Positions 17,066 to 22,786 of a stretch of 64,000 nt of DNA are shown one piece after another. The position numbers and the translations under genes were made by a program. The first letter of the stretch is position 1. Every line of letters begins with the position of its first letter. Source of the stretch: Gemmatirosa kalamazoonensis (GTDB lineage: Bacteria; Gemmatimonadota; Gemmatimonadetes; Gemmatimonadales; Gemmatimonadaceae); the NCBI RefSeq assembly GCF_000522985.1, contig NZ_CP007128.1:3890220-3954219 (forward strand). Reading direction: 5' to 3'. The notes beneath the pieces were generated by a model that saw only the letters and a program-made list of their open reading frames with translations, was not told the origin of the DNA and searched no databases.

Positions 17066-18448
17066 ATGTGCGGCATCTTCGGCGTGCGCGGCACGCCTCG
17101 CGCGGCGGCCCTCACTCACCTCGGCCTCTACTCGCTGCAGCACCGCGGACAGGAGTCGGCGGGCATCGCCGCCGTCGACGAGGCGGGCGCCGCGCACGGC
17201 GTGAAGCGCATGGGGCTCGTGAGCGATGGTCTCGCCGACAGCGACATGCACGCGCTCCGCGGCTCGCTCGCCATCGGGCACACGCGCTACAGCACCGCGG
17301 GCTCGTCGAGCATCGAGAACGCGCAGCCGGTGCTCGCGCGCTCGCGCGGCGGCCACATCGCGCTCGCGCACAACGGCAACCTCACGAACGCCACCGAGCT
17401 GCGGTTCGAGCTCGAGGAAGGCGGGTCCATCTTCCAGTCGTCGATGGACAGCGAGGTGATCGTCCATCGCATCGCACGCTCCTCCGCTCCGACGCCCGAG
17501 GCGCGCGTCGCCGAGGCGCTGGAAGGCGTCGAGGGCGCGTACTGCCTGCTCGTCGCGATCGGCGACACGCTCATCGCGGCGCGCGACCCGCGCGGCTGGC
17601 GTCCGCTGGAGATGGGAGACCTCGACGGCGCCGTGGTGTTCGCGTCGGAGACGTGTGGGCTCGACATCGTCGGCGCGCGGTACGTCCGCGAGGTCGAGCC
17701 GGGTGAGATCGTCGTCGTGGACGGCGACGGCGTGCGGTCGCTGCGGCCGTTCCCGCCCCGCGAGCTGCGGCGCTGCGTGTTCGAGCACGTGTACTTCGCG
17801 CGCCCGGACAGCTCCATCTTCGGCGGCAGCGTCGATCGGGCGCGCCGCGCGCTCGGACGGCGGCTCGCGCGCGAGAGCCCCGCGCCGGGCGCGGACTTCG
17901 TGTTCTCCGTCCCCGACAGCTCCAACTCCGCCGCGCTGGGGTTCGCGGAGGAGGCGGGGATCCCGTTCGAGCTCGCGCTCATTCGCAACCACTACGTCGG
18001 CCGCACGTTCATCCAGCCGTCGCAGGGAGACCGCGACTGGAAGGTGAAGGTGAAGTACAACGCGGTGCGCGAGCTGCTCGACGGCCGGAGCGTCGTGATG
18101 GTCGACGACTCGATCGTGCGCGGCACGACGACGAAGGGGCTCGTCGCGATGGTGCGCGCCGCCGGCGCACGAGAAGTGCACATGCGCGTGAGCTCGTCGC
18201 CGGTCACCGGGCCGTGCTACTACGGCATCGACACGCCCACGCGTGAGGAGCTGATCGCGGCGAACAACACCGTCGACGAGATCGCCGCGCACATCGGCGT
18301 CGACTCGCTCGGCTATCTCTCGCTCGACGGAATGCTGGAATCCGTCCCCACGGGCCCCCAAGGTTTCTGTCATGCGTGCTTCTCCGGGGACTACCCCACC
18401 CCGCCCCCCACAGACCCCGACAAGCTCCGCTTCGGCTGCGGCTGCTGA
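17066..18448 (+). CDS. purF: Amidophosphoribosyltransferase
   Basis: PurF commits PRPP to purine synthesis by replacing pyrophosphate with an amino group. The 460-residue product begins MCGIFG, so removal of Met exposes the N-terminal nucleophile Cys without a long propeptide. The PRPP loop VMVDDSIVRGTT is present. Cysteines at RRCVFEHVYF, GPCYYGID and GFCHACFSG match the four [4Fe-4S] ligands of the Bacillus enzyme, so it is probably an oxygen-sensitive Fe-S form. The last 77 bp are also read, in another frame, as the start of ppdK. Confidence 0.96.
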   Translation: MCGIFGVRGTPRAAALTHLGLYSLQHRGQESAGIAAVDEAGAAHGVKRMGLVSDGLADSDMHALRGSLAIGHTRYSTAGSSSIENAQPVLARSRGGHIALAHNGNLTNATELRFELEEGGSIFQSSMDSEVIVHRIARSSAPTPEARVAEALEGVEGAYCLLVAIGDTLIAARDPRGWRPLEMGDLDGAVVFASETCGLDIVGARYVREVEPGEIVVVDGDGVRSLRPFPPRELRRCVFEHVYFARPDSSIFGGSVDRARRALGRRLARESPAPGADFVFSVPDSSNSAALGFAEEAGIPFELALIRNHYVGRTFIQPSQGDRDWKVKVKYNAVRELLDGRSVVMVDDSIVRGTTTKGLVAMVRAAGAREVHMRVSSSPVTGPCYYGIDTPTREELIAANNTVDEIAAHIGVDSLGYLSLDGMLESVPTGPQGFCHACFSGDYPTPPPTDPDKLRFGCGC

Positions 18449-21194
18449 ATCGACGGACGCGCCGGAGCGGCTCGTCTACTTCTTCGGCGCGGGGGAGGCC
18501 GAAGGCACGAAGGACATGAAGGCGGTGCTCGGCGGCAAGGGCGCGAACCTCGCCGAGATGACCAACCTCGGCGTGCCCGTGCCGCCCGGGTTCACGATCG
18601 CATGTCAGACCTGCATCGCGTTCCTCCGCGATGGACACGCGCCCGACGGCCTGCGCGAGGAAGTGACCCGCAACCTGCGGCGGCTCGAGGAGACCGCGGG
18701 CAAGCGATTCGGCGACGCCGAGCGCCCGCTGCTCGTGTCGGTGCGCTCCGGCGCGCCGGTGTCGATGCCCGGGATGATGGAGACGATTCTCAACCTGGGC
18801 CTGAACGACGAGACGGTCGTCGGCCTCGCGCGCGCGAGCGACAATGCGCGCTTCGCGTTCGACTCGTATCGCCGCTTCATCCAGATGTACGCCGACGTCG
18901 TGCTCGGCGTCCCCGCGTCGCGCTTCGAGCAGCTGCTCGCCGCCAAGCGCCTGACGAACGACGTTGAGACCGACGCCGAGCTGTCGGAGGACGCGCTGCG
19001 GGAGCTCGTCGCCGAGTACAAGCGGCTGGTGCGCAACGCCACTGGCGCGGACTTCCCGAGCGACCCCGAGACGCAGCTCTGGGGCGCCGTGGAGGCCGTA
19101 TGGCGCTCGTGGACGCTGAAGAAGGCCGTCGACTACCGGAAGGTGAACGGCATCGCCGAGGACCTCGGCACCGCCGTGAACGTGGTCGCCATGGTGTTCG
19201 GCAACATGGGCGACGACTCGGGCACCGGCGTGGCGTTCACGCGCGACCCGAGCACGGGCGCGCGGACGTTCTACGGCGAGTTCCTCGTGAACGCGCAGGG
19301 CGAGGACGTCGTCGCCGGCATCCGCACGCCGCTCCGCATCGAGGAGATGGCCGAGCGCCTGCCCGGCGCGTACGAGGAGCTGCTGGAGACGCAGCGGCGC
19401 CTCGAGGCGCACTTCCGCGAGATGCAGGACATCGAGTTCACCGTCGAGCGCGGGAAGCTGTTCCTGCTCCAGACGCGCACCGGCAAGCGCGCCGCCGCCG
19501 CCGCGGTGCGCATCGCGCACGACATGGTGAGCGAGGGGCTGATCACGCGCGACGAGGCCGTTAGGCGCGTGGTGCCGTCGCAGCTCGACCAGCTGCTGCA
19601 TCCGGTGATCGACGCCGGTGTGCGCGCGCGCGAGGTGGCGACGGGCCTCCCCGCGAGCCCCGGCGCCGCGAGCGGCGTCGCCGTCTTCGACCCCGACATC
19701 GCCGAGCAGCGCGCGGCCCGCGGCGAGGCCGTGGTGCTCGTGCGCGAGGAGACGACGCCCGAGGACTTCCACGGCATCGTCGCGGCGCGCGCGGTGCTCA
19801 CGGCGCGCGGCGGCATGACGAGCCACGCCGCGGTCGTCGCGCGCGGCATGGGCAAGTGCGCGGTCGTCGGGTGCAAGGACATCCACGTCGACGCGAACCA
19901 CCGCCGCTTCACCGCCGCGGACACCGTCGTGCACGAGGGCGAGTGGATCACGCTCGACGGCGCGAGCGGCAAGGTGTACGCGGGGCAGCTCCCCACCGTG
20001 CCGAGCGAGATCGTGCGCGTGGTGGGCGGGCAGCTCGACGCGTCGCGCGCGCCGGCCTACCGCGCGTTCGCCGACCTGCTCGGCTGGGCCGACGAGCTGC
20101 GGCGACTGCGCGTGCGCGCGAACGCCGACACGCCGAAGGACGCGCGCATCGCGCGCGCGTTCGGTGCCGAGGGGATCGGGCTCTGTCGCACGGAGCACAT
20201 GTTCTTCGAGGGTGACCGCATCACCGCCATGCGCGAGATGATCGTCGCCCGCGACGAGGGCGGTCGTCGCCGCGCGCTCACGAAGCTGCTCCCCATGCAG
20301 CGCGCGGACTTCGAGGGGATCTTCGAGGCGATGGACGGCTGTCCCGTCACCATTCGTCTGCTCGATCCGCCGCTGCACGAGTTCCTGCCGCACGGCGGCG
20401 AGGAGTCGAAGCTGCTCGCGCGCACGCTGAACCTCTCGCGCGATCAGCTCAACCGCATCGTCGACGAGCTGCGCGAGTCGAACCCGATGCTCGGCCATCG
20501 CGGGTGCCGCCTCGGCATCACCTACCCCGAGATCACCGAGATGCAGGCGCGGGCGATCTTCGAGGCGGCAGTGCGCGCGACGCGCCGCGGGTTCGAGGTG
20601 AAGCCGGAGATCATGATCCCGCTCGTCGCCACCGTGCGCGAGTTCGACAACCAGGCGGCGATCATCCGGCGCGTGGCGCACGAGACGCTCGACGCGATGG
20701 GGATCGACATCGAGTACCTCGTCGGCACGATGATCGAGCTGCCGCGCGCGGCGCTCACCGCCGACGAGATCGCACGCACGGCGGAGTTCTTCTCGTTCGG
20801 GACGAACGACCTCACGCAGACGACGCTCGGTCTGTCGCGCGACGACGCGGGCCGATTCCTCCCGGTCTACATCGAGCGCGGCATCCTCGCCGACGACCCG
20901 TTCCAGGTATTGGACCAGGAGGGCGTCGGGAAGCTCATTCGCCGCGCGGTCTACGACGGGCGCACGTCGCGGCCGAAGCTCAAGGTCGGCGTGTGCGGCG
21001 AGCATGGGGGCGAGCCGCGGTCGGTGCGCTTCTTCCACCGCAGCGGGCTCGATTACGTGTCGTGCTCCCCGTTTCGGGTACCGGTGGCGCGGCTCGCGGC
21101 AGCGCAGGCCGCACTGCAGGGTGAGGACGACAACGAGGAGGCGGGGGCGCTCAGCATCCGGCGCGGGCCGGACGACGAGGGACTCGTGGCGTGA
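18372..21194 (+). CDS. ppdK: Pyruvate, phosphate dikinase
   Basis: PpdK interconverts pyruvate, ATP and phosphate with PEP, AMP and pyrophosphate. The 940-residue product has the nucleotide domain (VLGGKGANLAEM), the phosphohistidine in GGMTSHAAVVARGMGK and the PEP/pyruvate barrel with CRTEHMFF and the catalytic Cys in GVCGEHGGEP. The family normally starts near VYFFGAG. The only start codon I find upstream in frame is the ATG at 18372, giving a 25-30 residue Ala/Pro/Thr/Ser-rich extension and a 77-bp overlap with purF. AAGG lies about 8 bp before it. It ends the long run that began at truA. Confidence 0.93.
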   Translation: MRASPGTTPPRPPQTPTSSASAAAAESTDAPERLVYFFGAGEAEGTKDMKAVLGGKGANLAEMTNLGVPVPPGFTIACQTCIAFLRDGHAPDGLREEVTRNLRRLEETAGKRFGDAERPLLVSVRSGAPVSMPGMMETILNLGLNDETVVGLARASDNARFAFDSYRRFIQMYADVVLGVPASRFEQLLAAKRLTNDVETDAELSEDALRELVAEYKRLVRNATGADFPSDPETQLWGAVEAVWRSWTLKKAVDYRKVNGIAEDLGTAVNVVAMVFGNMGDDSGTGVAFTRDPSTGARTFYGEFLVNAQGEDVVAGIRTPLRIEEMAERLPGAYEELLETQRRLEAHFREMQDIEFTVERGKLFLLQTRTGKRAAAAAVRIAHDMVSEGLITRDEAVRRVVPSQLDQLLHPVIDAGVRAREVATGLPASPGAASGVAVFDPDIAEQRAARGEAVVLVREETTPEDFHGIVAARAVLTARGGMTSHAAVVARGMGKCAVVGCKDIHVDANHRRFTAADTVVHEGEWITLDGASGKVYAGQLPTVPSEIVRVVGGQLDASRAPAYRAFADLLGWADELRRLRVRANADTPKDARIARAFGAEGIGLCRTEHMFFEGDRITAMREMIVARDEGGRRRALTKLLPMQRADFEGIFEAMDGCPVTIRLLDPPLHEFLPHGGEESKLLARTLNLSRDQLNRIVDELRESNPMLGHRGCRLGITYPEITEMQARAIFEAAVRATRRGFEVKPEIMIPLVATVREFDNQAAIIRRVAHETLDAMGIDIEYLVGTMIELPRAALTADEIARTAEFFSFGTNDLTQTTLGLSRDDAGRFLPVYIERGILADDPFQVLDQEGVGKLIRRAVYDGRTSRPKLKVGVCGEHGGEPRSVRFFHRSGLDYVSCSPFRVPVARLAAAQAALQGEDDNEEAGALSIRRGPDDEGLVA

Positions 21195-21287
21195 GGCCTC
21201 GCGGTCGCGGCGTTGCGTGATCTGCCGGGCCCGCGCATGATCGACGACCCACGGCGCGCGCGACCATCGCTGCGACGTGTCATCGAC

Positions 21288-21310
21288 CTGACGGCGGGGC
21301 CCGCCGTCAG
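21288..21310. terminator. GC-rich hairpin after ppdK
   Basis: A perfect 10-bp stem (CTGACGGCGG, 21288-21297; CCGCCGTCAG, 21301-21310) has a 3-nt loop. No T-run follows, so it may be a terminator of the U-less kind or an mRNA 3'-end stabiliser. It lies in the 158-bp gap between ppdK and the next gene; nothing else is evident there apart from the strong ribosome-binding site near 21341. Confidence 0.5.
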
Positions 21311-21352
21311 CGTCGGCCAGCGACGCGCGCGCCTGGACTCAAGGAGGCTCGC

Positions 21353-22357
21353 ATGGGCCGTCGTCGAGATCCACCGCACAGCGCACCCCCGCGCAGCGCA
21401 CCTCCGCACCGCGGAATCCGGAGGGCGCTCCTCGTCGGCATCGCGTGTCTCGTCGCGATTCCGCTCCCCGCGCAGGACGAGCTCACCGGAGACCCCATCG
21501 ACTACGGGTTCGGATCGTCGCGCGTGTGCTGCATCGACGTCGCCGGAGTCAATCTGCTGAAGTACCTCGAGCGGGTCGGCCGGATCACGCCGCCGAGCGC
21601 GAAGCCCTACGGCGAGCAGCAGGAGAACTTCCACAAGATCTGGGACCCCGACTTCAAGTCGCCCGGTCGGACCTCCGCGCAGGACTTCCAGAAGGCGATG
21701 CAGACGTCGCTGGACTCGCGCGGCTACACGGCGAACGTCAAGCTGTTTTCCCGACGCCAGCTGGACTACGCGACGCTCGTGCAGGAGTGGAAGAACCAGG
21801 AGCTGATCGTGCTGTTCCTGGCGTCGGGCCCGGAGATGATCGGCCACGCGGTCTTCCTGTGGGGGCTGGAGCTCGACCTCACCAAGCCGCCGCGGATCAG
21901 CATCGTCGACCCGAACATCCAACCGAACACCGGGTTCACGGATCAGGCGGGGAACTCGCCCACGACGGTGAACGGCAAGCCGTACACCGGCGGCACCGCG
22001 TCGCAGGCGAACCTGAGCATCGGCACGGACCCAAAGACCAAGCTGCCCGTGTGGAAGTTCACGATCGATCAGCCGAAGATCGTTTACGGGTTCGCCGACG
22101 GGAGCACCGAGACGTTCGACGCGAAGCGCTTCGACTATCAGATCGTCGGCTTCGCGAGCGTGTCGGACGTCTGCAAGAAGAAGGAGCCCGACAAGAGTCC
22201 GGGCACGAAGAGCGTGGACACCTCACCCGACCCGGCGTGCAGCGTGTTTCCGGGCGTCCCCGAGCCCGCTCCGGGTCCGCTCGTCGCCGGCGGCGTCGCG
22301 GTGATGGCCATGCTGGCGTCCCGGCGTCGACGCCGGATCCGGCTCGATCACGCCTGA
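21353..22357 (+). CDS. Exported PEP-CTERM protein, papain/C39-like candidate
   Basis: The 334-residue protein has an Arg-rich signal peptide with hydrophobic core ALLVGIACLVAIPLPA (about 25-40). A C-terminal PEP-CTERM sorting signal consists of VPEP (302-305), a hydrophobic helix and RRRRR (324-328). It should be exported and processed by an exosortase, and none is encoded in this window. The body has a Cys pair followed by an Asn-Leu-Leu helix (Cys59-Cys60, VCCIDVAGVNLLKY), then GHAVFLWG (His165) and IVDPN (Asp186). That order and spacing resemble papain/C39-like cysteine peptidases. This assignment is tentative and I know no named family for it. AAGGAGG (21341-21347) is a near-perfect ribosome-binding site, unusual in this window. 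Confidence 0.65.
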   Translation: MGRRRDPPHSAPPRSAPPHRGIRRALLVGIACLVAIPLPAQDELTGDPIDYGFGSSRVCCIDVAGVNLLKYLERVGRITPPSAKPYGEQQENFHKIWDPDFKSPGRTSAQDFQKAMQTSLDSRGYTANVKLFSRRQLDYATLVQEWKNQELIVLFLASGPEMIGHAVFLWGLELDLTKPPRISIVDPNIQPNTGFTDQAGNSPTTVNGKPYTGGTASQANLSIGTDPKTKLPVWKFTIDQPKIVYGFADGSTETFDAKRFDYQIVGFASVSDVCKKKEPDKSPGTKSVDTSPDPACSVFPGVPEPAPGPLVAGGVAVMAMLASRRRRRIRLDHA

Positions 22358-22381
22358 CGAACGCCTGACGATCGACCCGAA

Positions 22382-22422
22382 ACACCGAGGGCCGTCAGCG
22401 CTGAGCTGACGGCCCTCGGTGT
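22382..22422. terminator. Bidirectional terminator hairpin
   Basis: A perfect 18-bp inverted repeat (22382-22399 and 22405-22422) has a 5-nt loop. It separates the PEP-CTERM gene and tmRNA, which converge. Only short T runs flank it, but stem strength and position support termination in both directions. Confidence 0.75.
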
Positions 22423-22430
22423 CTGGCGAG

Positions 22431-22786
22431 TGGAGGTGAGGGGAGTCGAACCCCTGTCCGAGACTAGATCGACCACGGTCTCTACGTGCGTATCCTCTCG
22501 ATTGATGTCTCCGCCGGCTGGCCGAGAGGCCGCCTACCGTCGAATGAGTCTCCTAGAGTTTTGCCCGCCGCCGGAAGACGCACCGACGGGCTAGCCCAGA
22601 TTTGCGTTACTCACGTGCCGCCCCGGGCGGGCTGCCTCGTGAGCACTGCTGGGTAAGGCCTAAGCCTTACGCAGCGAGAGCCAGGTTGTTGTTGGCAGTT
22701 GGAGATTTCCCGAGTGTTTCACCAGGACTCAGGACCTGAGCACGCAACCACGGCTTCACCAACCCCGTCGAAGCCAGGTCACCCCC
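22431..22786 (-). ncRNA. ssrA: tmRNA (ssrA), tag ANNNLALAA
   Basis: tmRNA rescues stalled ribosomes by adding a degradation tag. The 5' end GGGGGTGACCTGGCTTCGAC pairs with the 3' end CACCTCC plus discriminator A. The T arm carries GGGTTCGACTCCCC. CCA is not encoded. The tag reading frame (22696 down to 22667) is GCC AAC AAC AAC CTG GCT CTC GCT GCG TAA, giving ANNNLALAA, with the usual C-terminal ALAA for ClpXP/SspB-type recognition. It is the one-piece form, 356 nt. Several GC-rich inverted repeats downstream of the tag fit pseudoknots. Confidence 0.95.

Follow-up and report, generated by a model that had tools for sequence, protein, structure and literature searches.

A putative exosortase substrate with a candidate papain-like Cys-His-Asp triad encoded between ppdK and the tmRNA gene of Gemmatirosa

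Two described systems can be compared with the gene analyzed here. The first is that of the PEP-CTERM/exosortase substrates (PF07589, TIGR02595; Haft et al. 2006), with which its protein shares a signal-peptide-like N-terminus, a PEP motif, a hydrophobic helix and a C-terminal Arg cluster, as well as an exosortase encoded in the same genome. According to Haft et al. 2006 (PMC1569441), recognisable homology is lacking in most PEP-CTERM proteins, Pfam matches are found in less than 10% of them, and enzyme homologues are rare; the lack of homology found beyond the tail of our protein is typical in that sense. The second system is Peptidase_C39_2 (PF13529) with related papain-like peptidases, and here the likeness lies in the order Cys ... 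His ... Asp, in the H-x5-G and DP contexts, and in the placement of His165 and Asp186 in register with a profile of 74 sequences. We read the protein as an exosortase substrate, so far specific to its species, with a papain-like triad that is suggestive but unproven.

The window, i.e., the whole stretch of 64,000 nucleotides that was analyzed, corresponds to positions 3890220-3954219 of contig C2, in a genome of 7,479,215 bases and four contigs. The gene is located at 21353-22357 on the plus strand, where the open reading frame listing gives a protein of 334 amino acids from an ATG start, and these are exactly the coordinates assigned to it in the first-pass annotation. Its coding nature is supported by the GC content by codon position, 0.62/0.49/0.90, to be compared with 0.72/0.48/0.94 in the neighboring ppdK; the gene is real. 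A Shine-Dalgarno box, AAGGAGG, is found at 21341-21347 (+), 5 nt before the ATG, and we regard it as strong for this window because the full motif precedes a possible start in only two of 48 window genes, a crude set that includes this one, in line with the strong ribosome-binding site claimed before.

At the N-terminus, a basic stretch leads into a hydrophobic core, with a 15-residue hydropathy of 2.46 for the windows that start at residues 25 and 26. Residues 1-40 (21353-21472, +) are thus a probable signal peptide, with a plausible cleavage site after A40 as judged by eye. The C-terminus carries the motif V302-P-E-P305 (22256-22267, +), followed by a hydrophobic segment at residues 307-323 (22271-22321, +) and by the Arg cluster RRRRR at residues 324-328 (22322-22336, +), as the first-pass annotation had described it. 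The curated models scored this tail slightly under their cut-offs, which are detection thresholds and not biological features: 11.9 bits with PF07589 (cut-off 20.7), 15.2 bits with TIGR02595 (cut-off 16), and 15.8 bits with the MYXO-CTERM model of NCBIfam (cut-off 20). The tail also differs from that of other PEP-CTERM/exosortase substrates in the APGP that follows the motif and in the six further residues past the Arg cluster. A search of the whole genome with PF07589 gave 47 places, 36 of them above the cut-off (two of them only when neighbors were within the frame), and our gene was absent from the 47. We nevertheless kept the assignment, despite the missed cut-offs, because the tail matches the PEP-CTERM tails of this genome much better than expected by chance: a genome-specific profile, built from 30 of the 36 tails with our gene left out and used to score the last 45 residues, gave 24.1 bits, while the highest of 2000 shuffles reached 7.9 and the best of the 221 other window ORF tails reached 5.6 bits. 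Sorting of this protein by the PEP-CTERM route is therefore considered highly probable.

The first-pass annotation had proposed that the exosortase gene of this genome be located, and it was found as a single match above the cut-off, with 144.1 bits for TIGR02602 (cut-off 105.55), about 1.0 Mb from the PEP-CTERM gene. The general NCBIfam exosortase models scored above their cut-offs, and the subtype models listed scored below theirs. By eye, the region carries CSG, NGVR and HITEG, which fit the Cys-x-Gly, Asn-x-x-Arg and His-x-x-x-Gly motifs given in Haft 2006 (PMC1569441). The protein would be secreted via its probable signal peptide. By analogy with the family, the exosortase would then recognise the VPEP-helix-Arg tail, cleave it and transfer the protein either to exopolysaccharide or to the outer surface; both the tail and a gene for an exosortase are present in this genome.

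To place this protein among the other PEP-CTERM proteins of the genome, 30 of the 36 above the cut-off were scanned with Pfam. Enzyme domains were detected in three of these sisters, two of them trypsin-like (L036, G000:C2:1944672; L059, G000:C2:2854809) and one a GDSL lipase (L055, G000:C2:4244619). The earlier remark that such domains are less commonly described in PEP-CTERM proteins agrees with Haft 2006. The trypsin-like sisters resemble our protein, with its candidate papain-like domain, in having a peptidase-type domain on a PEP-CTERM tail, so that a surface peptidase with this tail would have a precedent in the genome, but theirs is a serine peptidase family recognised by Pfam, whereas our protein matches no peptidase family. 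One further sister has a CHRD domain and another collagen repeats; L056 has a match to DUF4394 below the cut-off, L064 no family at E ≤ 0.001, and 23 of the 30 show the tail alone, so that 25 (L056 and L064 among them) have no Pfam domain above the cut-off besides PEP-CTERM. This last proportion, together with the scarcity of recognisable homology reported in Haft 2006, speaks for a different explanation of our protein, which we hold to be possible but unlikely: the mature part would not be papain-like at all, but an orphan PEP-CTERM domain with a structural or adhesive role in the surface matrix, its Cys, His and Asp being coincidental. Conversely, the loose triad pattern described below was absent from all 30 sisters. 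Among the papers listed in a literature search that had most subscription journals outside its reach, there was none on a PEP-CTERM protein with a papain, cysteine peptidase or C39 domain, and none on a gemmatimonad exosortase.

The residues on which a papain-like reading depends are the pair Cys59-Cys60 (21527-21532, +), taken as candidate nucleophiles, His165 in GHAVFLWG (21845-21847, +) and Asp186 in IVDPN (21908-21910, +), the last two aligned to the catalytic His and Asp columns of the C39 profile. All four stand at the positions named in the first-pass annotation, and in that order. Cys60 is the likelier nucleophile candidate from its context, C-x3-A-x2-N-x3-YL. A loose triad pattern, which was written after the protein had been seen, was present in 14 of 20,000 shuffles of the core. 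None of the 30 sister PEP-CTERM proteins had it, and of 138 window ORFs of at least 230 amino acids the frame of the gene itself was the one that did. A CxPTAxxNSxxYL motif may occur in C39-like proteins of the PEP-CTERM kind; a search for such a motif found nothing, and the point was given no weight.

Searches with known families did not place the protein. An HMM search against the C39 and C70 families had been proposed, and no peptidase family was matched in Pfam or NCBIfam at a limit of E 10, with the proviso that HMMER filters drop most matches above 0.1; Peptidase_C70 (PF12385) was not among the Pfam families listed at that limit. Among PDB sequences there was neither a peptidase match nor a relative. 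This lack of a family match for the mature part adds to the case for an orphan domain. Two single-sequence AlphaFold models were of low confidence, with mean pLDDT of 36.6 and 38.8; in favor of the papain-like reading, both have a helix that begins near the Cys pair, at residue 58 in one and 64 in the other, and a strand that begins at 165 or 164. A Foldseek search with the first model, which is of too low quality to be informative, returned no match at E ≤ 0.001. A module preceding the tail and common to our protein, L047 and L063 was considered and rejected, as nothing significant was left once the tail had been removed.

The protein was compared with a C39_2 profile that had been built independently of it from 74 proteins, four from Gemmatimonadota and 70 from Planctomycetota. 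With hhalign, residues 40-274 aligned to this profile with a score of 18.96 and a probability of 1.85%. The alignment, which is local and leaves the Cys outside its aligned part, placed four elements opposite their counterparts in the C39 domain: the RGY segment, the LIVLFLA strand, His165 and Asp186. The score alone was reached by none of 100 shuffles and none of 30 sister proteins in a first small draw, by nine of 600 shuffles and one of 128 ORF chunks in another, and by 15 of 800 shuffles, four of 307 ORF chunks and none of 30 sisters in the largest. The position of the residues was examined under a criterion that was written after the alignment had been seen and that required a Cys 50-150 residues upstream: none of 800 shuffles put His and Asp on the catalytic columns, with the Cys upstream, at a score equal to or higher than that of the gene, and at any score His and Asp fell on these columns with a Cys upstream in one of 800 shuffles and none of 307 ORF chunks, while no sister protein (0 of 30) had His and Asp on these columns. 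We consider this a fair test for the residues because they had been named before the C39 profile existed. The register result also stands against the orphan-domain explanation, which in turn draws support from the shuffles or sister proteins that equal the weak alignment scores.

HMMER with the 74-sequence profile gave -1.8 bits, a value that 93 of 1000 shuffles and 18 of the 30 sisters also reached. Plain pairwise C39 scores were no better than those of controls: for the first 150 residues, the mean of the ten best pairwise C39 scores was reached by 10 of 100 shuffles. The top pairwise score was 59, to L183, and was reached by none of 2000 shuffles for that single pair; against the best of all 74 sequences, it was reached by four of 300 shuffles and three of 30 sisters, and for this reason it was given no weight. 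An alignment of four C39 sequences used as a profile found no match to the protein. As a control, 16 C39 members, hand-picked mostly from the low end of the score list, were compared with profile rows less than 22% identical to them, and all 16 had scores of 66-106 and probabilities of at least 97%. L183 was also noted for its own features: positions 390-1127 of this locus (genome G486, in the phylum of a Phycisphaerales genome) encode a protein of C39_2 type with QSCWAACA, GHFVVLYGYD and IHDP motifs, and by eye it ends in a Cys-containing linker, a hydrophobic helix and an Arg-bearing end, so that its papain-like domain would carry a tail resembling a sorting signal.

The claim of a possible papain/C39-like triad therefore stood in one part and not in the other. 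The residues are in order, and His165 and Asp186 fall on the catalytic C39 columns, with no control equal at that score; membership in the family was not borne out, with no peptidase family matched, a score of 18.96 against 66-106 for C39 members, and no oxyanion Gln. Apart from the score, which is not significant, and the absent Gln, the protein differs from Peptidase_C39_2 in an extra C-terminal region with the PEP-CTERM tail, and in the Cys60-His165 spacing, which is 105 residues here and 85 columns in the profile used. The statement that the protein is a C39 peptidase did not pass these tests, and that it works like a papain-type domain is a fair guess. A papain-like fold of the mature part seems moderately probable from these data, and the reading that we prefer, at slightly better than even chances, is a probably exported PEP-CTERM protein, sorted by exosortase, in which the mature part is papain-like and of C39 type but has diverged very far. 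Its core would run from the Cys helix to a strand with the His and then to a strand with the Asp, and at the cell surface Cys60-His165-Asp186 may bind or cleave a peptide bond or one similar to it.

Whether such a domain would be catalytic is a separate matter, and an active enzyme appears doubtful. The oxyanion Gln found six columns before the Cys in 72 of 74 C39 sequences is absent six residues before either Cys of our protein, where F53 and G54 stand; because this usual residue is missing, the enzyme may be weak or dead. Other papain-fold families use different oxyanion residues. A pseudoenzyme with a papain-like fold, serving as a ligand-binding domain at the surface after loss of the Gln, is accordingly a possible but unlikely variant that is contained within our preferred reading and is not to be added to it; the missing Gln and the undetectable family match are compatible with it, but Cys, His and Asp are all retained, although an inactive enzyme would have no need of them. 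A transglutaminase-like domain (C-x-D-x-A ... HA ... DP) in place of a C39-like one was also weighed, since CIDVA, HAV and DP resemble, by eye, local motifs of Transglut_core members. We regard it as very improbable: there was no Pfam match to Transglut_core (PF01841), and hhalign against 23 transglutaminases of Gemmatimonadota scored 11.5, which 51 of 100 shuffles reached, and aligned the protein away from the triad. Should the divergent papain-like reading be true and the domain be a surface-anchored cysteine peptidase, the exosortase system of Gemmatimonadota would gain a testable biochemical role; the protein also illustrates a common situation, in which a known sorting tag accompanies a lineage-specific domain and a motif is all that allows a guess at its function.

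Related proteins with the same N-terminal domain, which the first-pass annotation had proposed to look for, were not found. Searches with the mature domain (residues 40-290) gave no relative among 59 related genomes (own included), 395 genomes drawn from the phylum, 392 Planctomycetota genomes and three further genomes, and among 179 family genomes the own genome was the sole match at E ≤ 0.02; these sets overlap. Peptide patterns matched 16 stretches of genome_contigs, none a relative, and no relative was found with peptide patterns on viral_contigs or with tblastn on plasmids and phages; a DNA pattern of the His-Asp region matched five loci of genome_contigs, none of them a relative, and pattern scans of both kinds would miss distant relatives. 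The weak matches (E about 0.002-10; L010-L032 and L070-L084) were realigned, and the alignments read were short, compositional or with unrelated proteins, and lacked the triad; L078 was rejected as a relative of the mature domain, being another PEP-CTERM protein. In the genomes covered by these searches, the gene is thus so far restricted to its own species.

The gene stands between ppdK (18372-21194, +), named by recognition of its product, and the tmRNA gene (22430-22786, -). A ppdK match was found in 35 of 40 genomes, own included, and 30 loci were examined, i.e., our own and those of 29 relatives (L086-L114). The examined stretch after ppdK, very short in some of them, showed no tmRNA in 25 of these relatives, and a tmRNA was found in the remaining four (G015, G023, G011 and G041). 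The distance between ppdK and the tmRNA gene was 145 nt in G015, 64 nt in G023 and 116 nt in G011, too short for the PEP-CTERM gene, which is therefore absent from these three spacers; the DNA of the window and of G015 aligns on both sides of the gene with 84-85% identity. In G041 (L107), the spacer contains a different ORF, acetyltransferase-like by eye. These observations fit either acquisition of the gene in the lineage of Gemmatirosa or losses in other lineages, and suggest that the spacer, 21195-22429, is a site of gene turnover. A bolder proposal, which we rate as rather unlikely, is that the protein represents a novel papain-fold hydrolase family that exosortase delivers to the cell surface and that works with a Cys-His-Asp triad in the absence of the usual oxyanion Gln; it would so far be seen in a single species, encoded in a ppdK-tmRNA spacer that holds no gene in relatives. 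An inverted repeat at 22382-22422, between the gene and the 3' end of the tmRNA gene, has 18-bp arms that pair perfectly around a loop of 5 nt; no T run follows it and the terminator scan did not call it, and from its sequence it is possibly a shared terminator. The corresponding spacer of G015 contains a different hairpin (AAAAGGGGCGTCGC / GCGACGCCCCTTTT).
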